Source: a virus
Length of the DNA: 27,407 nucleotides
Virus record (IMG/VR): IMGVR_UViG_3300028027_000193
Coordinates: 1-27,407 of that record
Direction: 5' to 3' (one strand)
Positions 3,738 through 27,407 of the stretch are shown here, piece after piece. Numbering within the stretch: position 1 is the stretch's first letter; each line of letters begins with the position of its first letter. The position numbers and the translations under genes are program-made. Below the pieces are notes generated by a model. It had not been told where the DNA came from. It did no database searches and was given only the letters and a program-made list of their open reading frames with translations.

Positions 3738-3769
3738 AAAACCTCTTAACATTCTTAAGAGGTTTTTTT
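3738..3769 (+). terminator. Rho-independent terminator
   Basis: The stem CCTCTTAA (3742-3749) pairs perfectly with TTAAGAGG (3755-3762) around the five-base loop CATTC, followed by seven T at 3763-3769. It lies 47 bp after the 100-residue gene and closes the phosphoesterase/Nudix group. Four A precede the left arm, so it might also act weakly on the other strand. Confidence 0.8.
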
Positions 3770-3902: not shown

Positions 3903-6900
3903 ATGGAAAAAATATCAGTTTTCGAGTGCCTCGATAAAAGCTCAAGACCTTCTTCAGAATTCACTATCGAAGAGGCCCTTCAATATATTCAAGACAATCC
4001 AAGAAAAGAACTTATAACAGAATGTAAATTTCACCCTGACTTAGGCGGAAAGATGAACTCCATTATGAAGTTCAAAGACCGTATTTGGGATCGAAAGGAA
4101 CAGAAGCTTAAAATCGTTGAAAGGAATTATTATAACCATGTGAAGCAAAAAAAGGCTGCAGTGGTTACATGGAACTGCTTTGTCACAGAAAAACGTGCTA
4201 AAGACAAAATTCAGGCTCCTTCTGGGTATATTTACTGTGATGTTGATGATTTTAAAAAACTGATTCTTTCAAATAAGGTTACAGATGAAAAAACAGCTAA
4301 GGAGTATGTCAAAAAATTGCTTTCTTCAGACAGTTTAGGTTTTATAAAGGCTGTTTGGGATTCTTTTGGTGGAGATGGTTTAGGCTTCCTTGTGAAAGTT
4401 TCAGGTTTAACTGTCAGTAATTTTACAACAACATGGAAAGCACTTGAAAGCCTTTTCAGTGGATGGAATATTACTATTGACCCTTCAACAAAGGATATTA
4501 CTAGGTGTAATGTGCTTCCTTATGACCCATCAATTTTTATTCGAGAGGATGAAAATGTTGTTCCATTTGATGCTGTTGAACCAAAAGAAAATAATACAGT
4601 TGTTTTTGACAGTGGAGCACTGCCAAAGGAGCTTACTAATGATACTTTGGCATATAAGCTGGATAACCTCTATAATACTGATAAATCATGGTCAAATAAT
4701 CGTCTAACATATAATTTTTTCTTTGAGTATTTTGCATTTTGCAATTTAATGGGCATTGAAAAAGAGGATGCAATTAACTTCCTCATTAGAAATAATGAAA
4801 GATACCCACTACTGTTTTCATATAGATCTCTTGATACTGTAAAAGATGAGATTGCGGATAGAGTTACAAATTATTATGGTGATCAATTTGGGAAAAGACT
4901 TGTTAGTTCTAATGATGATGGAAATACAATCTATGAATTGAATAAAAAATATTCTGGAGATGTAACAATGAAAATTGAATATGTTTGGAGTAACATCAAA
5001 CATAAGGCTCTGGATAAAAATATAAAAATCAGAAGTTTGGCAAAGATCTCAAAAGAAGCAGGCATTTTCAAAAAACCTGTTATTGATTTCTTGGAGGCCA
5101 TATTAGATTTTGATGAAGACTTATATAAAACTGTTAACCAAGTTTATGGTGACAGCAATATTCTATTTGGAGCAATCAAAATTTTAACTGATGATGCAGC
5201 TAACAAGAAAAAACAAGATTATTACAATTGGGCTGCTTCCAATTCAATGGAAGTTAAAGAGCTTACAGAATACAAAGGCGATCTTCCAAAGAAATTAGAT
5301 GAAATCCTTAAGGAAGCCAATAACATCTTCCAGGCTATTTCAAGGGAGAATGTATTTCAATTTATTGGATACTACTTTAAGAACGCTAAAGCATTTGCTG
5401 TTAAACGTTCTGATTCTTTGGAATATATAAAAAATTTAATAGCGGACAATAATATTGAAGAAAGTATCAAAATTGATACAAAAATCATCAGCAGTGAGAA
5501 GAAAGCATTCTTAAAAAGATTAACTGCTCTCTGTGAATTTGTTTCTTTTGAAATATATGATTATGACTCTTGGAAATTTGGTTTGAGAACGTTAAAAAGG
5601 CTGACATCTGAAAAAATGTCTTCAAGATTTAACATTTCGAAACAATATTTCTTAAAAAATGGTGAATACATTAATTCTGTTGGGATTTCTGATGGAGATA
5701 ATCAGCTTATTTGGGGAAATACAGGTCAAGGTAAGACAACATGGATTTGTGAGCATACAAAAGGCTTGAGATTGTTCCTTGTTCCAATTATTCCACTGCT
5801 TTTAGGTATTGATAATACTTATAAGGCATCAGTATACTATAGAGATAAAAAGAACGTCCAAGAAGGAGATGAACTGATCGTTTGTACATACAGTAGTTTT
5901 CCAAATTTGTTGAAACAAATGAAAAATTGGGAAAATGTGAAAATTTCTGATTATAATTTGTACATGGATGAGGCCCACAACTTTGCAGTCAGTTCATCTC
6001 AAGAGTTCAGAGGGTTTGAATTGAATTGTATTGTTGATAACATGCATCTGTTCAAAAGCCGCAAATTTTTGACTGGAACAAATTTTCCTGTATTGCACCC
6101 TGAATTAAAAAATGTTGAAGTTATCCGTGTAAATTGGGAGCAAACACCTGTAAAGATTTGCACTCCTGTGAGATACAACAACATATTGTATGCTGTTGAA
6201 AATAAGCTGTCTAAAGGTGGAAAGAACTTGATTTATCTTCAAAATAAAAAAGAAGAAGGCCAATTGGGTTCACTGATAGATTATTTGGAATTAAAGGGAT
6301 GGAATAAGGACAAAATTTGGCTGATAAATGCGGATGAAAAGCATAGTGAGAATTTTGAAAGCCTAATGAAAGACAAAAGAGTGAAAGATGATGTTGAAAT
6401 TGTTATCTGTACCTCTGTTATTATCGAAGGCGTGGATATTAATAACTATGATTTTAAATCAGTTCATTTTATGACCCCAGAATCTGCTACAAATATGGAG
6501 CAGATGGTTAACCGATTGAGAAATGTTTATACCAAGGCTATAAATCCTGATGCAATGATTTATACCTATAGAAATATTGATGCAGTTGAAGATTTAGATT
6601 CAGATCATGTGGATGTTTTAGATGTTCAAAAGAAACTTATTGAACAAGCTGAAAGAGGTTTAGAGTTAATGTCAAAGGCTTATAGTTCTGGTGACAGTAT
6701 TAGCTATAAATCAGGTGTGAAGGTGTTCAACCAACATTTGTTTAACAAGAGTAACCTCTATAGAAATAAAGATGGTATTTGGGATATTGACTACTTATCA
6801 ATTGCGAATATGGCTTATAATGACGAAAAAAGATATTCTCAGAAAAATATTGAGTTTTTGAAAGTTTTGTTGGCTGAATATAATTGGAAATTTGAAGAAG

Positions 6901-7967
6901 AATTATTGATTCTTGAGGATATGCAACCTGAAGAGTTGAACAGAATCAAAACATTGAAAGCTGAAAGAAAAGAAACTTTGACCCAGGATGTTTTGGATAT
7001 TCTTGAGGAAGTAAAACTTGAAGGTGAAGAAGAGGCTTGCTCAAAAGTGAGTGATGAGATTGTGATGGAACTTGAAAAATTGCCAAGAGGACAATATCAT
7101 ATTAGTATTAGGAGTAAAGTCCGTTATCTGACAAACCACATGTCTTTTGAAGATGCTTGCAGTCTTATGGAAGAGTGGATCCTGGATCACAATATGAGTG
7201 ACAGGATTTGGAATAAGGTTATTCGTCAAATAAATGTGAAATTGACAGAAAAATTGAAAACATTTGACAATGCTAAAGATAATTCAACAGTTTTTGCCAA
7301 AGAACTTCTGAAATCTTATAAAAAAGTAAAAGTTCTTGAGAAAAAAATTGGTTCTTTTGTAAAACTGACATTAGTGCAGGTGATAGACTTTATCAATAAG
7401 GCAAAACATAAGGCAGGAGAAGAAATTCTTGATGAGAAGCAGTCTTTATTGACATTTAAATCTTATTTCGACACAGAGGAATTTCTTGATGTTAATGGGG
7501 TATATTATGTACTTACAGGGATCAAACTTATCAATGAAATTTCTTCTTTCAATGGGAAGTTAAAATCTTGGGCAGAATTGGCTTTTAAAAAAGGTGAAAC
7601 ACTTACAAACGAAGAATTGGCTGCAAAACTGAATAAATTTAGAGGTGACTTGCCAATCTTGAGTATGTATAAGTTAGACTCAAGAAATGCCATGAGGTTG
7701 ATCCATGACTACTATACATTTGAAAGAGCAGGGGTAAAAACTGTGAAGGGTAAAAAGACAAATACTTATAAGTTCATTGGCTTAGATGCAAAAGAGATTT
7801 CAAAATATGAAATCGTCCCATTGAGAAAGGTTTCAATAGACAGCAAGCATTATGAAGATATGACAATTGAAGAACTTGAGCAGTATCAGTTAGGTGAAAC
7901 CATCAACAATCTTAACTATTACTTAGCAGTTAATCAGAAACCAGATGAATTTCTTTTAGAAGTTTAA
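3903..7967 (+). CDS. AEP-type primase (BT4734/VirE-N-like) fused to an SF2 helicase
   Basis: This is a 1354-residue replication protein. Residues about 85-215 look like the BT4734/VirE-N branch of archaeo-eukaryotic primases: YIYCDVDDF (109-117) with the metal-binding Asp pair D113/D115, SFGGDGLG (154-161), and D199/R201 to D208 in KDITRCNVLPYDP. A helical region follows. Residues about 600-880 are an SF2 helicase motor: Walker A GNTGQGKT (605-612), DEAH (689-692), TGT (724-726), TSVIIEGVD (837-845) and arginine-finger motif Q867-R871-R873. This layout recalls herpes-type origin-binding helicases. The C-terminal 450 residues are not recognised. It probably makes primers and unwinds DNA, possibly recognising the origin. 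The AACCCTA repeats end at its start codon. Confidence 0.8.
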   Translation: MEKISVFECLDKSSRPSSEFTIEEALQYIQDNPRKELITECKFHPDLGGKMNSIMKFKDRIWDRKEQKLKIVERNYYNHVKQKKAAVVTWNCFVTEKRAKDKIQAPSGYIYCDVDDFKKLILSNKVTDEKTAKEYVKKLLSSDSLGFIKAVWDSFGGDGLGFLVKVSGLTVSNFTTTWKALESLFSGWNITIDPSTKDITRCNVLPYDPSIFIREDENVVPFDAVEPKENNTVVFDSGALPKELTNDTLAYKLDNLYNTDKSWSNNRLTYNFFFEYFAFCNLMGIEKEDAINFLIRNNERYPLLFSYRSLDTVKDEIADRVTNYYGDQFGKRLVSSNDDGNTIYELNKKYSGDVTMKIEYVWSNIKHKALDKNIKIRSLAKISKEAGIFKKPVIDFLEAILDFDEDLYKTVNQVYGDSNILFGAIKILTDDAANKKKQDYYNWAASNSMEVKELTEYKGDLPKKLDEILKEANNIFQAISRENVFQFIGYYFKNAKAFAVKRSDSLEYIKNLIADNNIEESIKIDTKIISSEKKAFLKRLTALCEFVSFEIYDYDSWKFGLRTLKRLTSEKMSSRFNISKQYFLKNGEYINSVGISDGDNQLIWGNTGQGKTTWICEHTKGLRLFLVPIIPLLLGIDNTYKASVYYRDKKNVQEGDELIVCTYSSFPNLLKQMKNWENVKISDYNLYMDEAHNFAVSSSQEFRGFELNCIVDNMHLFKSRKFLTGTNFPVLHPELKNVEVIRVNWEQTPVKICTPVRYNNILYAVENKLSKGGKNLIYLQNKKEEGQLGSLIDYLELKGWNKDKIWLINADEKHSENFESLMKDKRVKDDVEIVICTSVIIEGVDINNYDFKSVHFMTPESATNMEQMVNRLRNVYTKAINPDAMIYTYRNIDAVEDLDSDHVDVLDVQKKLIEQAERGLELMSKAYSSGDSISYKSGVKVFNQHLFNKSNLYRNKDGIWDIDYLSIANMAYNDEKRYSQKNIEFLKVLLAEYNWKFEEELLILEDMQPEELNRIKTLKAERKETLTQDVLDILEEVKLEGEEEACSKVSDEIVMELEKLPRGQYHISIRSKVRYLTNHMSFEDACSLMEEWILDHNMSDRIWNKVIRQINVKLTEKLKTFDNAKDNSTVFAKELLKSYKKVKVLEKKIGSFVKLTLVQVIDFINKAKHKAGEEILDEKQSLLTFKSYFDTEEFLDVNGVYYVLTGIKLINEISSFNGKLKSWAELAFKKGETLTNEELAAKLNKFRGDLPILSMYKLDSRNAMRLIHDYYTFERAGVKTVKGKKTNTYKFIGLDAKEISKYEIVPLRKVSIDSKHYEDMTIEELEQYQLGETINNLNYYLAVNQKPDEFLLEV

Positions 7968-7994: not shown

Positions 7995-8693
7995 TTGAGA
8001 AATAAAAATAGAAAACAGAAAACCTATGTTATAGGAGATCTTCATGGTGCATTCTTGCCTCTTGAAGAACTTCTTCGGAGAACTAATGTCCATCCCAAAG
8101 ACAAAATCATTTTCATTGGGGATTTGGCTGATGGTCATCCAGATTTTGATAAATGTTTGAAACTTTTGCTTTCTTTTGAAAACTTTGTACCCATCATCGG
8201 AAACCATGATTTTTTCCTGATAGAATACCTTAAATATGGAACAATCAATGAAGATTGGTCAAAATTCAGTGGGGCTTCCACTATAGAACGCTTGCTTTCC
8301 GATGAAGCAATAATTCCCCTTCTAAGACAATATTTTTCCAAAGCGGACTATTATCATGTCCATGAGAACAAGTTGTTCCTACATGGCGGATTTAACCCTA
8401 AGAGGGCCATTGATGCCCAGAGAAAAAGAAAGTTTGCTTTGAATAGAACTTTGTATTCTTTGGCAAAAACCTATGCTGTTCAAAAGAGAAAAATTCCTGT
8501 ATCTTTTAAAGACCCAGGAATTTCTATTGATGAGATTTTTATTGGTCACTCGACCACTAAGAATTTTAAACCAGATTTTGTGTCTAATCTAATAAATGTG
8601 GACACTGGGATAAAATGTGGCGGAAAGCTTACTTTGATGGATATTGACAGTAAAAATTATATCCAGAGTAAGAATTCGAGGTTTTATTATTGA
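7995..8693 (+). CDS. PP1/lambda-phosphatase-like metallophosphatase
   Basis: This is a phosphoesterase of about 232 residues resembling phage lambda and PP1-type Ser/Thr phosphatases. Visible blocks are GDLHG near residue 14, GDLADG (the usual GDxVDRG, with DR replaced), GNHDF, LHGGF and IGHSTT, then a late NVDTG. These give the two-metal site. The start is problematic. The frame is the same as that of the primase-helicase gene, nine codons after its TAA, and contains no ATG before the first motif. The TTG at 7995 is the best start. An ATG at 7978 lies in another frame and stops after six codons. The neighbour suggests co-transcription with the primase gene. The substrate is unknown. It ends 4 bp from the converging minus-strand gene. 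Confidence 0.78.
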   Translation: MRNKNRKQKTYVIGDLHGAFLPLEELLRRTNVHPKDKIIFIGDLADGHPDFDKCLKLLLSFENFVPIIGNHDFFLIEYLKYGTINEDWSKFSGASTIERLLSDEAIIPLLRQYFSKADYYHVHENKLFLHGGFNPKRAIDAQRKRKFALNRTLYSLAKTYAVQKRKIPVSFKDPGISIDEIFIGHSTTKNFKPDFVSNLINVDTGIKCGGKLTLMDIDSKNYIQSKNSRFYY

Positions 8694-10092: not shown

Positions 10093-10497
10093 TTAAAAAT
10101 CAATTTCTGAAAAAACATATTTGCATAGCAACTCCTCGCCTGCCTTAATGTTCTTTGTTGTCACATACCTGTCAAGGGTTAGGTCATGATGTACATTAAA
10201 ATTGTCAGAGTGATTAACGTAGTAGCTCAAATTGATAGCGGATACTGTACGACTAAGGAATAGTCCAGCATCATTTGAGTTACACATTCTTTTTAAATAT
10301 ATTTTAGATTCTATAGAAATTTTTTCAATATTATCCCAGGCTATAAAGTCAATATCAGGTTCAATATCGGAGAAAAGTATTGTTTTTTCACTAATGTCAA
10401 TAAGTGCAAATACTCCAATACCATCGCATACTTTAGAAGGTTTTAAACATACATTGCAATTATTTAATATTGAGTCAATAATTTTATTTTTCATCAT
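10093..10497 (-). CDS. SET-domain protein (putative protein-lysine methyltransferase)
   Basis: This is a compact 134-residue SET-like protein. Residues 21-36 (SKVCDGIGVFALIDIS) match the S-x-GxGvFA entry strand. Residues 94-101 contain VNHSDNFN, equivalent to the NHSxxPN pseudoknot motif. KAGEELLCKY (118-127) is the GEEL-xxxY motif with the catalytic Tyr Y127. SET enzymes transfer a methyl group from S-adenosylmethionine to lysine. At this length it is a minimal SET domain without pre- or post-SET zinc modules, similar in size to those of large DNA viruses. It overlaps the upstream 209-residue gene by 14 bp, so the two are probably coupled. The target could be a host or virion protein. It may instead be a non-catalytic SET fold. 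Confidence 0.68.
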   Translation of the reverse strand: MMKNKIIDSILNNCNVCLKPSKVCDGIGVFALIDISEKTILFSDIEPDIDFIAWDNIEKISIESKIYLKRMCNSNDAGLFLSRTVSAINLSYYVNHSDNFNVHHDLTLDRYVTTKNIKAGEELLCKYVFSEIDF

Positions 10498-11113
10498 TAA
10501 AATTTGTTATATAATTATAATCTGTACTGTATCCACCTTTTTGCTCAACAGAATATATATTCATATCAATTTTATATCCAGGATTTTTATCAATTCTATT
10601 AAATGTCCAAGCGTTATCACTCCAGATTATACGGTTGTTTGGATATATAAAGAAATTTCCATTATCCATTTTAAATACATGCCCACACTTATGCTCAGGG
10701 GTCTCACTAAAGTTTGTGTCAAGCATTGCTCTATTCTCATGTGACCAGTCAAGCGTGAACATATAATTTCCTTGCCTTTTAATGCTAGAAATAGATATTA
10801 AATCTGCTCTTAATCCATACATTCTTGATCTTGTTTGAACAGAGATATAATTACTAAAAGAATCCCAATAAATATGTTCTGAAAGAGGGAGTTTTTCTGC
10901 ATCTTTTTTCCAACAAAAGGCGTGAATAGGCCTTCTTGTCCAATTTACTCCATTTTCTAAGAATGCCTCAAAAAGAGGCACTCTTTTTTCAATAGAAGAT
11001 ACACAGTGAACATCGCATAAAGTAAAATCTCCATGACCTTTTTCATTGTTAAATAAAAACTCGTTTCTCAAAAAACAAGTAATTGTTGGGATATCGTGAT
11101 TTAAATACGCCAT
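10484..11113 (-). CDS. Conserved-looking phage protein of unknown function, 209 aa
   Basis: I cannot name a function. The start is the ATG at 11113 (MAYLNHDIPTITCFLRNEFL), 20 bp after the nrdA stop; a longer frame from 11155 would add a hydrophobic stretch read from the nrdA 3' end and is probably not real. The sequence has several Cys/His (TLCDVHCVSS, PIHAFCWKK, PEHKCGH) and many Trp/Tyr. It gives the impression of a globular, mostly beta, perhaps metal-binding protein. It has no membrane segment. It overlaps the start of the SET-domain gene by 14 bp, and the pair may act together. An intragenic stem-loop at 10964-10980 is probably incidental. Confidence 0.7.
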   Translation of the reverse strand: MAYLNHDIPTITCFLRNEFLFNNEKGHGDFTLCDVHCVSSIEKRVPLFEAFLENGVNWTRRPIHAFCWKKDAEKLPLSEHIYWDSFSNYISVQTRSRMYGLRADLISISSIKRQGNYMFTLDWSHENRAMLDTNFSETPEHKCGHVFKMDNGNFFIYPNNRIIWSDNAWTFNRIDKNPGYKIDMNIYSVEQKGGYSTDYNYITNFNDEK

Positions 11114-11133
11114 AGTTAATATTTTTAAAAATT

Positions 11134-13443
11134 TTATGCAGAGCAGCCAAAACATTCAAATTGAGAATCTTTAGGTTTCTTTGGTAATTCTGTATCCACA
11201 GTAGCTTCAACTGCCAACTGTTTTCTTGACATATCAATTGAATCTGTTCTAAGATAATATTGGCCTGTTTTCAATCCAAGCCTCCACCCATGAAAATGGG
11301 ATGAAGTTAATTTTCCAACTGTTGGTGTCCTCATGAAGATATTTAAACTTTGTGACTGATCAATAAATGGTGCTCTATCTGCAGACATCGTAATCAACTC
11401 CTTTTGAGAAATTTCATAAACAGTTTTATATCTTTCACGAATATCTTCAGGAATTATTGCAATCTCTTGAACAGAGCCATTGTTTTTAATAATCTCGCTT
11501 TTAATAAAATCATTCCAAAGATCGATTTCTTCTAAGTCTTTAATAAGATATTTATTGATAACTATATGTTCTCCACCAATAACTTTTCTTACATACATAT
11601 TACTAAAAAACGGCTCAAAAGCTTCTGTGCTGCCAATAATTGAGGCACTTGAGGCTGTCGGCATTTCTGAAGTTAATGTTGAATTAATAACACCATGTTC
11701 GATAATATCCTTCTTCAAAATATCCCAATTCCATATCCCAGACAATTCAGATTTATTTAACTCCCAAAGATCAAATTGAAGAATTCCTTCAGAGAATGGG
11801 GAGCCTTCAAAATATTTATAGGATTTGCCCTTAATTTTAGCTAAATCACAAGAAGCTCTTAAACTTGCATAGTAAATTGTTTCAAAAATTTCTTTATTCA
11901 ATTTTTTTGCTTCTTCAGAAGTGAAAGAGTATCCCATCAAAGCAAATGTATCTGCTAACCCTTGAACTCCTATTGCAAGAGCTCTCTGTTCTGTTGCACC
12001 CTTCCTTGCTTCTTCTGTAGAGTATTCATTAACATCAATAATAACATTTAAAGATTTTACAATTTCATAAGTTGCATCATGCAATCCTTTGAAGTCATAG
12101 TTGTTCCCTTTGACAAATTTATGGAGTACTAATGAAGAAAGAATGCACTGTGCAGTGGTTTCTGAGTCGCTGAAAAGATTTATTTCAATGCAAAGATTAC
12201 TAGACTTAATAGTGCCAATATTCTTCTGATTGCTTTTTCTGTTCACATGGTCTTTATAAGCCATATAAGGAACCCCTGTTTCAATTTGAGCTTCCAAAAT
12301 CCTTTTCCAAAGATCTTGTGCTTTAATTTTCTTACCAATTCCCAAAGAAACTGCCTTTTCATATTCGGCTTCATATTCTTCTCCATAGATCTCCCAAAAA
12401 GGTTTCAAACCATTTTTTACAATATCATTTGGGCAGAATAAATGCCAATCTCCATCAGATTCAACTGCTCTCATGAAATTATCTGGAATCCATAGAGCTG
12501 AAAACATATCTCTTGCTCTCATTTCATCAACACCTTCTTTTCGGATATCTATCACATCAAAAACATCTTTGTGCCAAGGTTCTAAATAAACTGCTGCAGC
12601 GCCTGGACGTTTACCCTTTTGATTCCAGAATCTTAAAGATTCATTAACAACTTTCATATATTTCAAAAGACCACCTGCTTTTCCTCCACCTTTACCAACA
12701 TAAGATTCTTTACTTCTTATATTATGCAAAGCTAGACCAATTCCTTCAGCTCTTGAGGAAGAGATTGAAATATTTCCGAGGGTTTTTAATAGGTCTGGAG
12801 TATTATCACCTTTACACATTGTAAGATTACATGAGATCATACTCTGGTCATGTGTACCTGCATTAATTGTTATTGGGGTTGCAGGAGAAATTTTATGTGT
12901 TGAGACCAATTCATAATATTTCAAAGCATCCTCAATTGTTTCTGAAACAGTTAATGCAACTCTCATATACATGTGCTGTGGCCTTTCAACAATTTCATCA
13001 CGTTCTTTCAAAAGATAAATCTCTTTCAATCTTGAGCATGCAAAATAATCAAAATTGTAATCTCTCCTATAATCAATTGCATTTTGGATAACTTCTGCAT
13101 TTTCCTTTACTTTATTGTAGAGTACCTCATTTACAATTCCATTATTTTTCAACTTTTTAATAAGTTTCAAATAATTTTCCTCAGTTTCTTTATGTAATCT
13201 TGAAATGAAAATATTTGCTGCAAGCCTTGAATAATCAATATGTTTATATGACAATGAATCTGCAGTTATGGCAATCAAATCATCTATTTGACTTGTTGTG
13301 ATGCCATCACCAATACCTTGTGTAACTTTAATGAATAATTCATCAGGATTAACCTTTAATCCTTCGGATTGTTTTTTTATCCTTGTTAATATTTTTGATG
13401 GATTAAATTCCATCTTCACTCCATTCTTTTTTATGATGTCCAT
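11134..13443 (-). CDS. nrdA: Ribonucleoside-diphosphate reductase, class I large subunit
   Basis: This enzyme subunit reduces ribonucleotides to deoxyribonucleotides with NrdB, supplying phage DNA synthesis. It is 769 residues, close to the 760 of E. coli NrdA. An ATP-cone-like N-terminus (residues 1-90) is followed by the catalytic barrel. SCNL with C205 and QCILSS with C433 are the disulfide-forming pair; SSNLCIE gives N416, C418 (thiyl) and E420. The C-terminal tyrosine pair is seen in TGQYYLRT. The tail ECFGCSA carries the shuttle cysteines C764 and C767. All catalytic residues seem intact, and no intron or split is visible. nrdB lies 22 bp upstream on the same strand, so the genes form one operon in the order nrdB-nrdA. 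Confidence 0.95.
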   Translation of the reverse strand: MDIIKKNGVKMEFNPSKILTRIKKQSEGLKVNPDELFIKVTQGIGDGITTSQIDDLIAITADSLSYKHIDYSRLAANIFISRLHKETEENYLKLIKKLKNNGIVNEVLYNKVKENAEVIQNAIDYRRDYNFDYFACSRLKEIYLLKERDEIVERPQHMYMRVALTVSETIEDALKYYELVSTHKISPATPITINAGTHDQSMISCNLTMCKGDNTPDLLKTLGNISISSSRAEGIGLALHNIRSKESYVGKGGGKAGGLLKYMKVVNESLRFWNQKGKRPGAAAVYLEPWHKDVFDVIDIRKEGVDEMRARDMFSALWIPDNFMRAVESDGDWHLFCPNDIVKNGLKPFWEIYGEEYEAEYEKAVSLGIGKKIKAQDLWKRILEAQIETGVPYMAYKDHVNRKSNQKNIGTIKSSNLCIEINLFSDSETTAQCILSSLVLHKFVKGNNYDFKGLHDATYEIVKSLNVIIDVNEYSTEEARKGATEQRALAIGVQGLADTFALMGYSFTSEEAKKLNKEIFETIYYASLRASCDLAKIKGKSYKYFEGSPFSEGILQFDLWELNKSELSGIWNWDILKKDIIEHGVINSTLTSEMPTASSASIIGSTEAFEPFFSNMYVRKVIGGEHIVINKYLIKDLEEIDLWNDFIKSEIIKNNGSVQEIAIIPEDIRERYKTVYEISQKELITMSADRAPFIDQSQSLNIFMRTPTVGKLTSSHFHGWRLGLKTGQYYLRTDSIDMSRKQLAVEATVDTELPKKPKDSQFECFGCSA

Positions 13444-13465: not shown

Positions 13466-14416
13466 TTAAAATTCTTCATCAAATGCCATTGATCCTGATA
13501 AGTCTGCTTTTTTATATTCAGTGGGTCTTCCTTCAAAGAAATTTTGTTTTGCCTTCATAGCAATTTGCATCATAAAGTCAAATGGTTGGCGTACATTGAA
13601 AACAGGCTTACATTTAAATTGGATCAACAATTGATCTGTCACGAACTGAATATATTGAGTCATCAATGTATGATTCATGCCAATTAGTGAAACAGGAAGT
13701 GCATCTGTTATAAACTCTTTTTCAATTTCATAAGCAGACAGAATTACATCTTTAATTCTTTCTTCCGAAAGCTTATTTTCAATATGATTATTATATAAAT
13801 GTACTGCAAAATCTGTATGTAAGGCTTCATCTTTGTTAATATATGAATTAGCTTTACATAGCCCTGGCATAAGACCTCTTGTTTTTAACCAAAAGATTGA
13901 ACAAAAACTCCCAGAGAAGAAAATGCCTTCCACTGCAGCAAATGCAATCAAGCGTTCAGCAAAAGAATCTGAATCAATCCATTTTAATGCCCATTCAGCT
14001 TTCTTTTTTACAATAGGAAGCTTATCAATTGCTTTAAAACATTCGGCCCTTTCTTCAACATCTTTTATATATGTATCAATAAGTAAAGAGTACATGTGAT
14101 TATGAATATTCTCCATCGCAATTTGAAATCCGTAGAAAAATGTTGCTTCAGGATATTGAACTTCCTTTATAAAATTGTGTGCAATATTTTCATTTACAAT
14201 ACCGTCAGATGCAGCAAAAAATGATATAATGTTTTTTATAAAGAATTGCTCATTATCATTTAATTTTTCCCAATCTTTAAAATCTTCTGACAAATCGACA
14301 GCACCTGCAGTCCAAAAAGCAGATTCAGCTGTCTTATAGAAATCCCAAATATCATGATGTTTTATTGGAAAAATAACATACCTTTCTTTGTTTTCAATTA
14401 AAATTTTTTCTTTCAT
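13466..14416 (-). CDS. nrdB: Ribonucleoside-diphosphate reductase, class I small (radical) subunit
   Basis: This is the diiron radical subunit partner of NrdA, 316 residues. By spacing against mouse R2 the iron ligands are D71 (ASDGIVNEN), E102 and H105 (ENIH), E163 (VEGIFF), E197 and H200 (DEALH). The radical tyrosine is Y109. The sequence AASDGIVNENI and the FYGFQIAMENIH block resemble eukaryotic/viral R2 more than E. coli NrdB. The C-terminus AFDEEF is an acidic-aromatic tail of the type that docks on the large subunit. A weak sigma70-like pair, TTGACT (14458-14463) and TATTTA (14435-14440) spaced by 17 bp, lies in the 53-bp gap upstream on the minus strand, but a Bacteroidota sigma factor may not use it. 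Confidence 0.95.
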   Translation of the reverse strand: MKEKILIENKERYVIFPIKHHDIWDFYKTAESAFWTAGAVDLSEDFKDWEKLNDNEQFFIKNIISFFAASDGIVNENIAHNFIKEVQYPEATFFYGFQIAMENIHNHMYSLLIDTYIKDVEERAECFKAIDKLPIVKKKAEWALKWIDSDSFAERLIAFAAVEGIFFSGSFCSIFWLKTRGLMPGLCKANSYINKDEALHTDFAVHLYNNHIENKLSEERIKDVILSAYEIEKEFITDALPVSLIGMNHTLMTQYIQFVTDQLLIQFKCKPVFNVRQPFDFMMQIAMKAKQNFFEGRPTEYKKADLSGSMAFDEEF

Positions 14417-14469: not shown

Positions 14470-15906
14470 TTACGAATCAGAATAAACATGTTCCACAAGT
14501 GCATCATTAATAGCCTTATCGGTCAAAAATTCTTCTTTGTTAAATTCTATTAACATATTTCCATTGTCAAAAAGGCAATCTTGGTAAACAATTCCTGATC
14601 TTCCCATACGATTTTTAAGAATTGCTACAGTAGCCTTATTTTGTGCCTGTTGATCTAACTCTTTTGCAAACGACATAACAAAGTGTGCTACTTTATACTT
14701 TCCAAAGTCCCCACCCATTTGTTCTCCTGTAACAAGCTTTGCATTCAGGGAACCTTTTGTTCCTTGGGTAAACACCCAGCATGCAAAATTTAATTGGTCT
14801 TTTTTACAGAGTCTTTCTAATTCTCTTGCGATTTCTGATTGTCCCTCCCAAGCATTTGTATATTGTCTTTTTGGCTTAATACAGTCGATGTAGTCAATAA
14901 GCACTACATCAAATTTGATTTTTTTGTATTCACCCGTATCTGGGAAATAGACTCCAGTCTCTAAAGCACGTTCATAGATTCTTTTGATGTCATCAACGGT
15001 GGTGTTGATTGAATCCATTGCATAAGGAACAAGGCAACCCCCACTATTTTTAATTTTTGTTAATTTATCATCTGTTTCCTTTACAACTACCTTACGATTT
15101 TTTTTGTTTGAAGAGAAGTTGATTGGTTTTCCTATCAATTTTGAAATATGCTTCATTTTTATCTGCTCTACAGTATCCTCAAAAAATATCTGAAGAACAT
15201 TATAGCCTGCTTTTGCCATATTATTTGCAACAAATGTAGCAAAGGTACTCTTGCCTACCCCTGACGGGGCAATAACAAGTGCAAACTCTCCATAGGCCAG
15301 TCCACCATTCATATCTTGGTCAAGTGCAACAATTCCTGACGGAATTGGGTGTCTTTCACCTTCCTCAAGATGTCGATAATCACCAGCAACAAAGGCTTCC
15401 AAAGGATTCTCATCTTTTGCACTGATGGTAGCCTTAGAAATCATCCCAGGGAGCTCTTCAAACTTCTCATATTTGCCTTGTTCAACAAGCTTTTGGATTT
15501 CTTGTGTACAAAAGAAAATATTTTTTGTGTTGATGAAATTGATTGTATTCTTTTGAACCCAATTTGATTCCTCAACAACAGTGTTCTTGATATCTTTCAA
15601 GTACTCTTTGAACAATTCTCTATCATACTCACTCTGGGAATTTGCTTGAATCCTCTCAACAATAGTATCATAATAAGGAATTTTATTGTTTACCTTATAG
15701 TGATTTTTTAATGCAACAACAAGTTTTTGTGCTAATGAGTTTGTAAAATGATCTGCCTGAATATAATTTATAACCTTTCTTCCGAATGTTTCATCTCTTA
15801 CCACCCCATTTCCCTTTTGTTCTTTGGTACCAATGATTTCATGGAGTACCTTCAATTCATATGTTTCACCAAAGAAACCTAATGCTTTATCTTCGTAATG
15901 TTTCAT
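14470..15906 (-). CDS. Replicative DNA helicase, DnaB/T4 gp41-like
   Basis: This hexameric RecA-fold helicase unwinds DNA at the fork. It is 478 residues; T4 gp41 is 475. The N-terminal 160 residues are helical, as in the gp41/DnaB N-terminal domain. The motor begins at about 190 (IPSGIVALDQDMNGGLAYGE). It has Walker A APSGVGKST (213-221, K219), FFEDT (241-245, the catalytic Glu region), Walker B DVVLIDYID (333-341) and a late KNRMGRSG region that resembles the DnaB arginine-finger loop. It belongs to the same strand block as nrdB (53 bp downstream). T4 pairs gp41 with primase gp61, but no TOPRIM-type primase is visible in this window. Confidence 0.92.
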   Translation of the reverse strand: MKHYEDKALGFFGETYELKVLHEIIGTKEQKGNGVVRDETFGRKVINYIQADHFTNSLAQKLVVALKNHYKVNNKIPYYDTIVERIQANSQSEYDRELFKEYLKDIKNTVVEESNWVQKNTINFINTKNIFFCTQEIQKLVEQGKYEKFEELPGMISKATISAKDENPLEAFVAGDYRHLEEGERHPIPSGIVALDQDMNGGLAYGEFALVIAPSGVGKSTFATFVANNMAKAGYNVLQIFFEDTVEQIKMKHISKLIGKPINFSSNKKNRKVVVKETDDKLTKIKNSGGCLVPYAMDSINTTVDDIKRIYERALETGVYFPDTGEYKKIKFDVVLIDYIDCIKPKRQYTNAWEGQSEIARELERLCKKDQLNFACWVFTQGTKGSLNAKLVTGEQMGGDFGKYKVAHFVMSFAKELDQQAQNKATVAILKNRMGRSGIVYQDCLFDNGNMLIEFNKEEFLTDKAINDALVEHVYSDS

Positions 15907-17137: not shown

Positions 17138-18211
17138 TTAGTTATTAGTAAAAGTTTTTAAAAAAGGTTTGAAAAAATATTTAAGATCTTTAGATTTATT
17201 ATTTATATGCTCTAAAATTCCGCTCTCAGTCATTCTTTTTACCATACTGACAGAATTGGATGATTTGAAAGTTTCCTTTGAAAGGAACCCTGTTTCTGTA
17301 AGATTTTTGATACATTGCTCGGTTAAAAATTCAAAATTATTTAAATCCACAATCCGTTCATTTATTTCAAGGATTTGTTTTCCTTGAGAACCATCCGTTA
17401 CACCCTCAAGAATGTTTTTGCATGCATTTAGATGGATTTTAGGTGTACTTTCAATTAAAACGTTTGATGAATTCAATAAGTTCAAACAAATAGATTTAAT
17501 TTCTGATATTGTTAAAACTTTTTCAAGTATCGCAGGAATCATGCCAAACAACGTTGTTTCTCTGACACCTTTAACATTTTTTATTTCATCTGAATCATCA
17601 CCACAAATTGTTTTAATAATTTTTATGTTTTCATAAGGAAATCCAAATATTTTTTTGAAATTCTTATGGTCAATCAGTAAATTTTTGCGATCTTCATTTT
17701 TTTCATACCTTTCAACTGTCCTAGATTTCACTTTGAATGTTTTATTCAGATAATAAACATTGACATCTTTAGAAATACGTTGCAATATATCAAAATCACC
17801 TGTCACAATGGTTATTTTTTCATCTTTAGCCTTGTGTTCCACATAGTAGGCAATAATATCATCTGCTTCTACAATCTCATCTTCATAAACATTGCAAAAA
17901 AACTCTAGGTAGAATTTCAAATCAGCTTTTTGTTGCTGGTATTTTAATGACTTCTCATCTTCAACAGAATGCAACTTTTTCTGAAGGCGCTTCAGTTTAT
18001 ATTCAGGATAAATAGCTCTTCTTAATTCTCCGCTTCGATTTCCATCAAAAACAACCTTCAAATGAGTGTATCGATCAGAATCAAGAATGATCCTGAGTTT
18101 CAAAAGAAACAAAAATGTTCCATTGAAGTTTTTCTTGTATTCTTCAGTGGATAAAGTTGCTTCAAATGAATTTTTTAGTAAGGAATTTCCGTCTACAAGT
18201 AGTGTTTTCAT
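17138..18211 (-). CDS. 5'-3' exonuclease, T4 RNase H / FEN-like
   Basis: This nuclease removes RNA primers and 5' flaps during lagging-strand processing. The family acidic residues are laid out as expected: LLVDGNSLL at the N-terminus, VVFDGNRSGELRR near residue 55-65, EADDIIAYY, VTGDFDILQ, and CGDDSDEIKNVKGV, which starts the helix-hairpin-helix region. Length is about 357 residues from ATG 18211; T4 RNase H is 305. A longer frame begins at 18244 with MFHVEQFNKN, but that stretch is the translation of a repeated 16-bp palindrome and its flank. MKTLLVDGNS is the natural start. No Shine-Dalgarno sequence is seen. It ends the SSB-to-RNase H block, as in T4. Confidence 0.88.
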   Translation of the reverse strand: MKTLLVDGNSLLKNSFEATLSTEEYKKNFNGTFLFLLKLRIILDSDRYTHLKVVFDGNRSGELRRAIYPEYKLKRLQKKLHSVEDEKSLKYQQQKADLKFYLEFFCNVYEDEIVEADDIIAYYVEHKAKDEKITIVTGDFDILQRISKDVNVYYLNKTFKVKSRTVERYEKNEDRKNLLIDHKNFKKIFGFPYENIKIIKTICGDDSDEIKNVKGVRETTLFGMIPAILEKVLTISEIKSICLNLLNSSNVLIESTPKIHLNACKNILEGVTDGSQGKQILEINERIVDLNNFEFLTEQCIKNLTETGFLSKETFKSSNSVSMVKRMTESGILEHINNKSKDLKYFFKPFLKTFTNN

Positions 18212-18215
18212 TAGG

Positions 18216-18257
18216 TTTTTATTAAATTGTTCCACGTGGAACATTTTTGGTTATTAA
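18216..18257 (-). repeat. 42-bp leader repeat, copy 1
   Basis: This stretch matches 18513-18554 at 40 of 42 positions (mismatches at 18221 and 18225). The 32-bp right part, including the central palindrome, is identical. It precedes the RNase H gene, and the other copy precedes the 68-residue gene. Confidence 0.9.
18228..18243. promoter_or_regulatory. parS-like 16-bp palindrome, copy 1
   Basis: TGTTCCACGTGGAACA is a perfect palindrome. It differs from the B. subtilis-type parS consensus TGTTTCACGTGAAACA only by a symmetric T/C and A/G change, and matches the parS core TTCCACGTGGAA used by Myxococcus (known). It is 16 bp upstream of the RNase H ATG at 18211. It could be a ParB centromere site, or an operator or other phage signal. 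Confidence 0.6.
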
Positions 18258-23410: not shown

Positions 23411-26400
23411 TTAATAAGTTAATGCCTGTTTTATACCATAATAAGATGTTTCAAAATGCATCCAATCATATCCTCCATATCTCCCAAGATTGTACCAACC
23501 CCATTTTTCAAGTATATCTAAAAATGCTGTATAAGGTGCCTGACTAAATAAAGCATCTTTACCCCTTGAATTATATAAATTTAATTCAGCTGTAAAATCT
23601 ATTGCAATACCATAAGCATGTGGAGAAGGATTAGCTCCATTAGTAATTCTTCTGAAAACAAAAGACCCTGCAAAAAGATTTAACCCCAATTTTTCAATAT
23701 TTGTAGTCCCATAGAAATCTAAAACTTCACGCATGGCATAAATAAATGAATCGCCTACTAAACCATGTAACTGAATCTTTGAAACGGCTTTATTATTATA
23801 CATATTTTTTAATGGAAAAGGTAATGTATATATTTTTATATATTTTGAAGCAAATGTAGCCCTCTGTTTATCATCAGCCCTTTCACCTTTAATTGGCAGT
23901 AATGATTGGTCAATATATCCAAATACGTTATCATGCTCAGTTTTTGAATAAAGCCCTCTTGCAACTCTACCTTTTCCAACAACATATGCTTTTGAATTTG
24001 AAGCCTTTAAATATGCATCAAGTTCATTAAATATTCCACTTGTTACAATCTGTCCATTTGCAATAGGAATATTTAATAGATTTGAACTACGAGTTTTACT
24101 CATAATTGCAGAAACTTCTAAATCAGAAATTGTTATAAGTTTTGCATAAGGATTTGATGCCCAAAGACCAGTTCTATCTAAACTATTGGAAGTTTGAATA
24201 AGATTTCTGGGATTAGGATTCAAAATTGAAACCTTTGTGTTTAATATCAACTGCCCATTGAATGCAGGTGTTGTAACCAAAGGCAGGTTAAAGTTTGGAA
24301 CTTCCCCAAAGTTAGTATTATAAGCCTCAAGATTCCCAGTTTTTTCTTTCCCTCCAATTTCTGCTTCTGAATATGAATTACCTCCTAACGGTCTGATAAC
24401 AGTACGTTTTCTTTCTTCATCAGAAAACAATGTTTCCGAAAGAGGGATAGAGATATATGAAGTAATTTCTTTAACAACAGGGTACGAAAATCTTGGCATC
24501 CTATATCCTTCGAAACTTGTTTCAATATTATTGGCAGTAATTTCATGCTTTACTTTAGCTACCTGATATGCCCCATGATAAAATGGAATATTGTCCAACT
24601 GAAAATAATTTAAAGCATTTACCATCATATTACCCATACAAGTGACAGCACATTTATAACTTCTTACACCATAAATATTATAAAGATTAGCTTTTTTGTA
24701 AAGAGGTTTTGTACCTCCTCTTGAATCAAAATTTTCTGCTAATGCATCATGGTATTCTGCAGTTGCTTTATGTTCAGATTGATTCAATCCAATAGTTTTA
24801 AATATACTTTGGTTTTGATCTGCATAACCAACTCTAAAAACAACCAAATTATATTTATTTTTTTCACTTGGAATATCTTTTACTCCTGCAGGAACCCTCT
24901 TTTTAAATCCATTTGGTATATTTCCAACTTCAGATTCTCTAAAATCAAAACCATCATTTACATAATATGCTTTTTTACCTAAATCAAGAGATGTTGAAGC
25001 CCCAGATCTATAAACACAGATATATGAAGCACCACTATTAACTTGCTCAAGTGTTGTAACAGGTTTCCACATATCTAATCCTTCTTGAGGAGTCTTATAA
25101 TTCATAAAAGCAGGCAAAGCGTACATCTCAAATCCAGATGCACGTCCTAAAGTAGATAAAAATATTGAAAAGTCTTCTGTTTTTAATCCTGCTAAAGTTT
25201 GAAGTGCCTTTGGATCAACAACTGCAGTGTCACCAATAGGATTAAAATGTGAATCTACAAAAGAAAATCTCTCAATCAATCTATTACCCAAGTTGTTTCC
25301 ACAGGAATTATAGGGTTTTCCATCTAAAGACCCACCTAACCATTTATCATATAAATTTTTGAAGTGCCTGTATGAAGCCAATTTCATATCCTTATCAGCA
25401 ACATAAAACGGTTCTGAAGGATTATTATCAACAGTATTTAATGTACCGCCTAATGACCCCTTATTAGCCTCAGTAACCCATTTTTTATATGTTGTAATCC
25501 ATTGAACCAAGTATTGTTTCAATATATCATTTGAAAGCACTTCAGAAGTCAAAACAGTTCTTTTGATTCCATTAACATCGTTTACAACAAAATCTATTGG
25601 AGTTACTATTTCTTCTAAAAGAGCATCATAGTAGCTTATAAACATATTATGATTAGCTGAAGGAGCGTATTTAGCTCCAGAATCAATTAAATTCCTATAG
25701 TTGTAAACAATATTTTCTATTGAAATTATTTCAGGTAAAAAGTCAGTTAAAATGAGATTTGCAGGCCCATTGTACTCGTTTGTAGTCCAATTTTCAAAAT
25801 ATTTCACCATTATATCAATGAAATTGTCACTAAAATCATTGAGGTTTGGTAAATATTGTTTTGTCTCTTTTTCTTTACTTATTAAACCTGCAATATAATT
25901 TGGAGCCATCAATGATGTTCCATTAGAAAAATTAATAGTTAATTGGTTAATTATATTTTCAAAAATATCTTCACCATACAATTTAATATAGTTTGCCCTC
26001 CAAAATTGTGCTGCAACCCAAGCCATTTGCATTTTTGTTAAATTGTAAATGCCTGCTAAATCTAAAATCTTATAAAAATCACTGATAGAATCCATAGGAA
26101 CTGTCAAAAGAAACAAATATGCTTTCTCAAGTGGTGACCCTATTGTATAATATTCTTGTTCAAGTAAAGATTTATCTGTATCTACACCATTAACAATTCC
26201 AAGTCCAATTGAAGAGCCAGCTAAATTACTAAATTTAATATTTTCATCTGTAGTCGTAACAAAATCAACGGCAGGGTTTACCTGTCCATCAAAAACTGTT
26301 AAATCATTGATGATACTTGAAATTACATATGGGACAGATTTATCCTGTAAAAGATCATTACTTGTTCTTGACTTATAAAACTTTCTTATAGATGTCTTTA

Positions 26401-27407
26401 CCTTATTATTCCAAAGCAAATCAGTAATATCCCCTTTGATCAAATAGCTTGCCTTGTCCAATTGTCTATGGACAATTTTAAATTTCGTTGGAATAAAAAT
26501 GTCTTCTATAGAAGATTTAAACCCTGCGATTAAATCTACAACAGGCTTTGCCAGGTTTCTCTTTTCTTTTTTTGAAACATTTTGTACTATGTCAAAGGCA
26601 TTTTCTAAACTCCCTTCATTTTTATTATTTATTGACACAACACTTGAAGCACTTGTCAATGTTGGAGTTGCAATAGCCAATATTGAATCTGCAAAAACAG
26701 TTGAATCAACGTTATTAATTATATTTCTAATGGTAGGTTCAACAGTCTTATGAAAAGCATAAGTTGAATCTATCTGAGAAATATAATTAAAAGTACTCTC
26801 ACGATATCTTGAGAAATTATAAGCAGCCCTTGCACGACCAACAATTTCATTTGCCAGTTCTAAAGGAACAATATTTCCATTAAAAGTTAATGTATTTATT
26901 TTTGAATATGGTGTTGACAATCCTGTGACTGTTGCAACTGCAGGCGGAAGATTCAAATCTTCAACATACAAAGGAACCCAACTGTCACCAGGGGCACTTG
27001 AAGTATTCTTAGCATTTTCTGATACTTTAGTGGTGGTAGAAGTTCCATTTGAGGTTACCATTGAATTCAAAGCCTTTTTAATAAGCCCAATTTCAGGAAA
27101 ATGTGGATTATCTTCACCTACAACATCACCTAACCAAACTTCTTCTCCAGTACTTGCATTATATACTGATGGAAATGGATAAATTCTATTATTTAAAACT
27201 TGCTGATCTGTTGAAACGCCTTTAATTGCAGAAATTCTTTTTTGTTGAATATCTTTGTTGTCAGCAGCTAAGCCATAATCATAAATAATTTTTAAATAGG
27301 CATCAATATTCCCTAGAAGAATGTCAAAAACATTTTGGATATTTAATTTCAATCCAATTTGTGATTCTATACTGCTATTTAATTCATCATTTACAGTTTT
27401 TTCAAGA
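23411..27407 (-). CDS. Very large baseplate/tail hub-like protein ending in an M15 peptidase (partial, N-terminus off window)
   Basis: The frame is open to the right edge. A TTG at 27352 is not the real start: the upstream codons remain open and read ESQIGLKLNIQ. At least 1330 residues are present. The end is an M15-type metallopeptidase: SPHAYGIAID (H at 23618-23620, D at 23597-23599) and DWMHFE (H at 23456-23458), giving the zinc-binding SxHxxGxAxD and HxE-type motifs. This enzyme class cleaves peptidoglycan cross-links. Upstream, FYHGAYQVAKVKHEITANN and IETSFEGYRMPR resemble the hub proteins of contractile tails, which form the central spike base (gp27/gp5 analogues). It probably pierces the cell wall during infection. 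The rest is not recognised. Confidence 0.78.
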   Translation of the reverse strand, partial: LEKTVNDELNSSIESQIGLKLNIQNVFDILLGNIDAYLKIIYDYGLAADNKDIQQKRISAIKGVSTDQQVLNNRIYPFPSVYNASTGEEVWLGDVVGEDNPHFPEIGLIKKALNSMVTSNGTSTTTKVSENAKNTSSAPGDSWVPLYVEDLNLPPAVATVTGLSTPYSKINTLTFNGNIVPLELANEIVGRARAAYNFSRYRESTFNYISQIDSTYAFHKTVEPTIRNIINNVDSTVFADSILAIATPTLTSASSVVSINNKNEGSLENAFDIVQNVSKKEKRNLAKPVVDLIAGFKSSIEDIFIPTKFKIVHRQLDKASYLIKGDITDLLWNNKVKTSIRKFYKSRTSNDLLQDKSVPYVISSIINDLTVFDGQVNPAVDFVTTTDENIKFSNLAGSSIGLGIVNGVDTDKSLLEQEYYTIGSPLEKAYLFLLTVPMDSISDFYKILDLAGIYNLTKMQMAWVAAQFWRANYIKLYGEDIFENIINQLTINFSNGTSLMAPNYIAGLISKEKETKQYLPNLNDFSDNFIDIMVKYFENWTTNEYNGPANLILTDFLPEIISIENIVYNYRNLIDSGAKYAPSANHNMFISYYDALLEEIVTPIDFVVNDVNGIKRTVLTSEVLSNDILKQYLVQWITTYKKWVTEANKGSLGGTLNTVDNNPSEPFYVADKDMKLASYRHFKNLYDKWLGGSLDGKPYNSCGNNLGNRLIERFSFVDSHFNPIGDTAVVDPKALQTLAGLKTEDFSIFLSTLGRASGFEMYALPAFMNYKTPQEGLDMWKPVTTLEQVNSGASYICVYRSGASTSLDLGKKAYYVNDGFDFRESEVGNIPNGFKKRVPAGVKDIPSEKNKYNLVVFRVGYADQNQSIFKTIGLNQSEHKATAEYHDALAENFDSRGGTKPLYKKANLYNIYGVRSYKCAVTCMGNMMVNALNYFQLDNIPFYHGAYQVAKVKHEITANNIETSFEGYRMPRFSYPVVKEITSYISIPLSETLFSDEERKRTVIRPLGGNSYSEAEIGGKEKTGNLEAYNTNFGEVPNFNLPLVTTPAFNGQLILNTKVSILNPNPRNLIQTSNSLDRTGLWASNPYAKLITISDLEVSAIMSKTRSSNLLNIPIANGQIVTSGIFNELDAYLKASNSKAYVVGKGRVARGLYSKTEHDNVFGYIDQSLLPIKGERADDKQRATFASKYIKIYTLPFPLKNMYNNKAVSKIQLHGLVGDSFIYAMREVLDFYGTTNIEKLGLNLFAGSFVFRRITNGANPSPHAYGIAIDFTAELNLYNSRGKDALFSQAPYTAFLDILEKWGWYNLGRYGGYDWMHFETSYYGIKQALTY

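Follow-up and report, generated by a model that had tools for sequence, protein, structure and literature searches.

T4-type phages prime with gp61 and gp41. Which machinery, then, makes the primers in a T4-like phage that encodes, besides a helicase of the gp41 type, a predicted primase of a different superfamily fused to a motor of its own? The question is raised by the gene at positions 3903..7967 (plus strand) of the IMG/VR record IMGVR_UViG_3300028027_000193, a phage genome fragment that we analyzed over the entire length of the record (27,407 bases; hereafter, the window). The gene is an intact open reading frame (ORF) of 1354 codons, with an ATG start and no internal stops, and its 1354-amino-acid product is predicted to combine an archaeo-eukaryotic primase (AEP) domain with a superfamily 2 (SF2) helicase core (hereafter, the AEP-SF2 protein). 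The initial annotation of this locus suggested that the protein may replace the canonical priming system. The comparisons described here point to a different arrangement: the AEP-SF2 protein appears to be an addition to gp41/gp61 and not a substitute, such that the phages of this clade seem to possess two distinct machineries for primer synthesis.

Conservation of the AEP-SF2 protein

Relatives of the window were gathered through the DnaB (gp41) gene and through alignments. Full-length, intact homologues of the AEP-SF2 protein, with 49–62% identity, are encoded in five other contigs (G001, G003, G004, G005, and G006), and the homologue in a further contig, G007, is cut by the contig end. Some of the homologues are near-identical, so that they represent four distinct lineages. 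For two close pairs, the ratios of nonsynonymous to synonymous substitution rates (dN/dS) are 0.042 and 0.089, values that indicate strong purifying selection on the gene. When IMG/VR was scanned with one protein at a time, neither P0001 nor the protein of phage MA9V-2 (see below) gave a hit, because the patterns were too specific; a scan of cellular genomes with the full alignment, likewise, yielded no relative of the AEP-SF2 protein.

The window encodes a gp25-like baseplate protein, and its 184.5-kb relative G001 encodes a T4-type terminase (TerL), portal, major capsid protein, and tail sheath; jointly, these genes support the assignment of the window phage to the T4-like phages. The phages of the clade appear to infect Bacteroidota. 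Queries from T4 and from the Flavobacterium phage immuto detected no DNA polymerase, clamp loader, or UvsX in G001, a contig that is probably incomplete, unless the replisome is divergent.

Domain architecture

Along the 1354-amino-acid chain, the AEP domain (residues 89–212) is followed by a helical region, the SF2 core (residues ~566–900), and a C-terminal part without a known family; as a whole, the protein falls into no PHROGs family and has no sequence match in the PDB. Residues ~89–212 (4167..4538, plus strand) are predicted, from Pfam, profile comparison with hhalign, and conserved motifs, to be an AEP domain of the BT4734 type that synthesizes primers. In the window protein, hmmscan matched residues 89–212 to the Pfam family BT4734-like_N (PF08800) slightly below the curated cut-off (E = 0.0015), the match to the AEP region in the genome-wide search was above the cut-off, and all four lineages (4/4) match the family, with the best E-value of 1.6e-5. 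When the family's AEP profile was compared with that of eight BT4734-like domains, of which seven are of cellular Bacteroidota origin and one comes from a Flavobacterium phage, the match had a probability of 99.0, an E-value of 3e-18, and a score of 115, against a maximum score of 20.2 among 20 column-shuffled controls and of 11.4 for the reversed control. Motif I (DxD) corresponds to D113 and D115 (IYCDVD) and motif III (hD) to I192-D193, and both are kept in 7/7 homologues; the metal-binding acids D113, D115, and D193 are invariant across proteins that are 49–61% identical.

The AlphaFold models are of low confidence, owing to alignments with no more than four distinct lineages, with a mean predicted local distance difference test score (pLDDT) of 56.6. 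Within the low-confidence model, residues 108–198 superpose on the reverse-transcriptase palm, which we take to be the type of fold that an AEP should have (Z 8.7, root-mean-square deviation (rmsd) 2.6, 80 aligned residues), although a Z near 8 can reflect a common arrangement. No AEP chain was among the matches listed for the model of the AEP region, and Foldseek with the low-confidence N-terminal model returned nothing significant.

The AEP domain departs from the described pattern in motif II, which in AEPs is sxH, with the histidine said to be needed for nucleotide binding (PMC5862659); here, the motif is G-L-G (residues 159–161), the histidine being replaced by glycine in 7/7 homologues. 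The AEP part might thus no longer be a primase and might instead serve as a nucleotide- or DNA-binding module, in which case the protein would be an SF2 helicase or translocase, for example, an origin-binding or host-takeover motor. Such a role would also fit the gene neighborhood, which consists of phosphatase and nudix genes and not of replication genes. Nevertheless, the invariance of the three metal-binding acids and of the motifs around them at this level of divergence weighs against such a reading, and we consider the loss of primase activity improbable. In the cellular BT4734-like proteins, motif II is mostly G-L-K, lysine being common, so that the histidine is not general in the BT4734-like subfamily either.

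Residues ~566–900 (5598..6602, plus strand) are predicted to form a complete SF2 helicase core that unwinds DNA, as indicated by motifs I–VI, the Helicase_C domain, a RecA2 fold match, and homology with jumbo-phage proteins (see below). Motifs I, Ia, Ib, II (DEAH/DEEH), III, IV, V, and VI are conserved wherever a homologue extends far enough to include them, and the motif sequences are near-identical (Walker A GNTGQGKTT, DEAH/DEEH, TGT, NRLR). The Pfam domain Helicase_C maps to residues 768–871, slightly below the curated cut-off in the window protein, and is matched by all four lineages (4/4). In the model, residues ~742–894 match SF2 RecA2 domains (Z 6.9, rmsd 3.4, 117 aligned residues), RecA1 being poorly modeled. 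The UL9 family (Herpes_ori_bp, PF02399) was rejected as a source of the motor, nine records having been searched without a match at E ≤ 1, and the D5_N domain is absent. G001 additionally encodes a separate SNF2-like SF2 helicase that has no profile match to the AEP-SF2 motor; the latter, therefore, is not simply a UvsW-type helicase.

The region between primase and motor, residues 242–560 (4626..5582, plus strand), is helical according to AlphaFold secondary structure of low to moderate confidence. The C-terminal 454 residues (6603..7964, plus strand) belong to no recognized family, and sequence searches with the C-terminal ~450 residues gave no Pfam, PHROG, or PDB match. In the model, residues ~1130–1293 comprise two repeats, each with helices followed by a beta hairpin (pLDDT mostly 64–84), which faintly resemble tandem winged helices and hint at a DNA-binding C-terminus. 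The initial annotation, which had read the chain as a BT4734-type AEP, an SF2 motor, and an unrecognized C-terminal part of ~450 residues, is borne out in all three respects, as is its identification of a gp41-like helicase in the window.

Coexistence with gp41 and gp61

The gp41/DnaB-like replicative helicase is encoded at 14470..15906 (minus strand; phrog_19, E = 9e-49) and is also present in G001–G004, with 57–80% identity in the relatives. T4 gp61 belongs to phrog_47, and G001 contains a 312-amino-acid ORF (147462–148400) that matches this family (E = 2e-38) and has a DNAG_N domain; the ORF aligns with T4 gp61 and with the primase of immuto, with the zinc-binding cysteines and the TOPRIM residues conserved. 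Homologues of this ORF are found on two other AEP-SF2 contigs, G005 (48%) and G006 (46%). A gp61-type primase with intact motifs is, accordingly, present in all three relatives that cover the syntenic region, 19.5 kb (G001), 22.6 kb (G005), and 21.1 kb (G006) beyond the AEP-SF2 start codon; contigs G002, G003, G004, and G007 stop short of this place.

In the window, which reaches only 3.9 kb on that side, no gp61 was found. The window ends 15–19 kb before the syntenic place, which explains why gp61 is not visible, and from the relatives we infer that the window phage has its own gp61. The search for gp61 that the initial annotation had recommended was thus negative in the window itself and positive in G001, G005, and G006. 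Takeover of priming from gp61 by the AEP-SF2 protein would be compatible with the gp61-free window and with the related AEP-SF2 proteins in four complete jumbo-phage genomes in which no gp61-type primase was found (see below). The presence of the gp61-type primase in 3/3 relatives that reach the region contradicts the replacement suggested initially, and we consider such a replacement very improbable.

Related proteins in jumbo phages

A tblastn search with the motor alone led to a 1215-amino-acid protein of Chryseobacterium phage MA9V-2, annotated as hypothetical (L056:6741-10388). Its relatives are gp68 of Sphingomonas phage PAU (L058:2332-6246) and proteins annotated as helicases in the Tenacibaculum phages PTm1 (gp117; L059:2326-6336), PTm5, and pT24 (gp013; L060:2086-6525). 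The proteins of PAU, PTm1, pT24, and MA9V-1/2 share with the window protein the order of a BT4734-like AEP with N-terminal motifs, an SF2 motor, and a long C-terminus, whereas all four of the named jumbo-phage proteins have a histidine in motif II, where the window clade has glycine. Compared with the BT4734-like proteins, the jumbo-phage AEP part gave a probability of 94.8 (E = 5.5e-8), which rose to 96.8 (E = 2e-10) when the alignment was deepened. Between the two groups, the motors are specifically related (E = 3e-13 over residues 566–1037); the motor profile scored 84 against MA9V-2, compared with 52 against one phage DEAD-like helicase and at most 29 against three other SF2 helicases. Given that direct comparison of the AEP parts of the two groups was not significant, common descent of the whole fusion is only likely. 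A scan of IMG/VR identified 68 loci (L190–L257) that encode jumbo-type AEP-SF2 relatives, some of them on contigs of 193–410 kb.

The complete genomes of MA9V-2, PAU, PTm1, and pT24 differ from the window clade in that they contain no phrog_47 or DNAG_N match above the cut-off; the gp61 profile had no match in MA9V-2 and PTm1. DnaB matches in the same four genomes were only weak, all below the cut-off, and those to PF03796 fall within the AEP-SF2 protein itself. A DNAG_N match in MA9V-2 (E = 0.012) was considered as a primase candidate and discarded, as this protein, by sequence, looks like a sliding clamp. In these four genomes, no primase candidate other than the AEP-SF2 protein was found, and this protein may be the sole primosome there; its presence in jumbo phages with no detectable gp61 and no DnaB above the cut-off suggests that the architecture is able to prime replication. 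The word primase is absent from the paper on MA9V-1 (PMC10537231), in which no reference to the AEP-SF2 fusion was seen.

As a separate observation on these genomes, matches to the T4 gp43-like polymerase fall in two distinct ORFs, as though the gene were split, both in MA9V-2 (W01:149284-150801 and 154260-155537) and in PTm1 (W03:165174-166667 and 168659-169486).

Possible roles of a second helicase-primase

Given that primer synthesis and a DNA motor are joined in one chain beside the gp41/gp61 system, the AEP-SF2 protein is best read as a specialized initiator or restart primosome. We have about even confidence that the gene encodes an active second helicase-primase dedicated to a specialized step beside gp41/gp61. 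Under this scenario, the AEP domain would make a short primer while the SF2 motor of the same chain would open, or translocate on, duplex DNA, such that melting and priming would take place at an origin, or else at a fork that is blocked or arose by recombination; gp41/gp61 would then carry the bulk of lagging-strand priming. For this scheme, we infer a catalytic AEP, a motor that acts as a DNA helicase, and a division of labor between the two machines.

Several observations weigh against the specialized initiator or restart primosome. Apart from the substitution in motif II, the AEP-SF2 gene is distant from both gp61 and gp41, and its orientation is opposite to that of gp41; furthermore, the analysis revealed neither an origin nor an established DNA-binding domain. 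Repair or fork restart of the PrimPol kind is a possible, although on the whole doubtful, alternative, under which the AEP would reprime past lesions and the SF2 motor would remodel forks, the protein taking no part in initiation. In favor of this alternative, fork remodeling is frequent among SF2 motors, a primase that is redundant with gp61 would suit a repair function, the AEP-SF2 protein shows weak NCBIfam similarity to the CRISPR-associated PrimPol, and repair enzymes are among the members of the AEP superfamily (PMC4538821). However, in the jumbo-phage relatives, the AEP-SF2 protein appears to be the only primase, which points to replication, and all sampled lineages of the clade have the gene, although each of them was found via the gene itself or the neighboring gp41.

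Comparison with known priming systems

Fusions of AEP with SF2 domains and the link of such motors to T4-like phages have been described previously (Kazlauskas et al. 2018; PMC5862659); specifically, AEP proteins of the all3500 family possess SF2-related C-terminal domains that are related to pVOG1685/9714 of T4-like phages and phage SPbeta (PMC5862659). The window protein resembles this family in having an AEP and an SF2-type motor in one chain and in the connection of the motor to T4-like phages, but its AEP is of the BT4734 type and its motor has no PF02399 match, the comparison with pVOG1685/9714 being by description only; furthermore, the window phage also has gp41, and its relatives have gp61. 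The BT4734-like/VirE_N proteins of Bacteroidota and the primase of Flavobacterium phage mumin/mymlan share the AEP domain but are shorter than the AEP-SF2 protein, and in the Flavobacterium phage, a distinct gene adjacent to that of the primase carries the helicase annotation. The T4 gp61/gp41 primosome is similar in function class, that is, primer synthesis combined with unwinding, but gp61 is a TOPRIM/DnaG-like protein unrelated to AEP, and gp41 is a hexameric RecA-type helicase. As far as the open-access literature was searched, three aspects are new, namely, the BT4734 type of the AEP that T4-like phages have in such fusions, the co-occurrence of AEP-SF2 and a gp61-type primase, and the AEP of PAU-like jumbo phages, which had gone unannotated.

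Genomic neighborhood

Upstream of the AEP-SF2 gene, a terminator-like hairpin with a 12-bp stem followed by a T run (3738..3766, plus strand) raises the possibility that the gene starts its own transcription unit; two terminator-like sites were seen in the scanned stretch, with about two expected by chance, and no Bacteroidota-type promoter pattern was matched in the gap upstream of the gene. The next gene downstream (7995..8693, plus strand) encodes a Ser/Thr-phosphatase-like protein (phrog_246), a homologue of which adjoins the AEP-SF2 gene on the downstream side in 5/5 relatives (G001, G003, G004, G005, and G006). A 5'-3' exonuclease, possibly a primer-removing nuclease, is encoded at 17138..18244 (minus strand; Pfam 5_3_exonuc_N, E = 1e-22; phrog_107).

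Elsewhere in the window, positions 1–1911 contain a single listed short ORF of at least 60 amino acids, with negative GC skew in the first kilobase and no transfer RNA. A ferredoxin-like gene lies at 10484–11155 (phrog_3704, E = 1.5e-50), and immuto, too, has a gene annotated as ferredoxin. NrdA and NrdB are encoded at 11134–13443 and 13466–14416 (phrog_84 and phrog_86), and nearly all cellular relatives of NrdA among the matches listed are titled Bacteroidota; the ribonucleotide reductase that lies beside gp41 in G001 (phrog_367; L018:16185-18047) is unlike this pair. The 1313-amino-acid protein encoded at 23411–27352 (TTG start as listed) has an M15 peptidase domain at its C-terminus, the same arrangement as in a 1786-amino-acid protein of G001 (102492–107852). 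Another G001 protein (L013:7359-9083) combines a GNAT acetyltransferase domain with a subsequent weak match to ART-PolyVal (ADP-ribosyltransferase).

Implications for phage priming

We put forward only tentatively the broader picture in which T4-like phages with apparent Bacteroidota hosts run two complete, evolutionarily unrelated primosomes with a division of labor, and the related AEP-SF2 protein alone serves the PAU-like jumbo phages as replicative primase-helicase. If true, this would amount to a widespread, unrecognized phage primosome built on an SF2 motor. A conserved second primase that comes from another superfamily and has its own motor would make division of labor in priming testable, and the AEP in proteins whose annotation goes no further than "helicase", "gp68", or "hypothetical" would be a candidate answer to the question of how the PAU-like jumbo phages prime.

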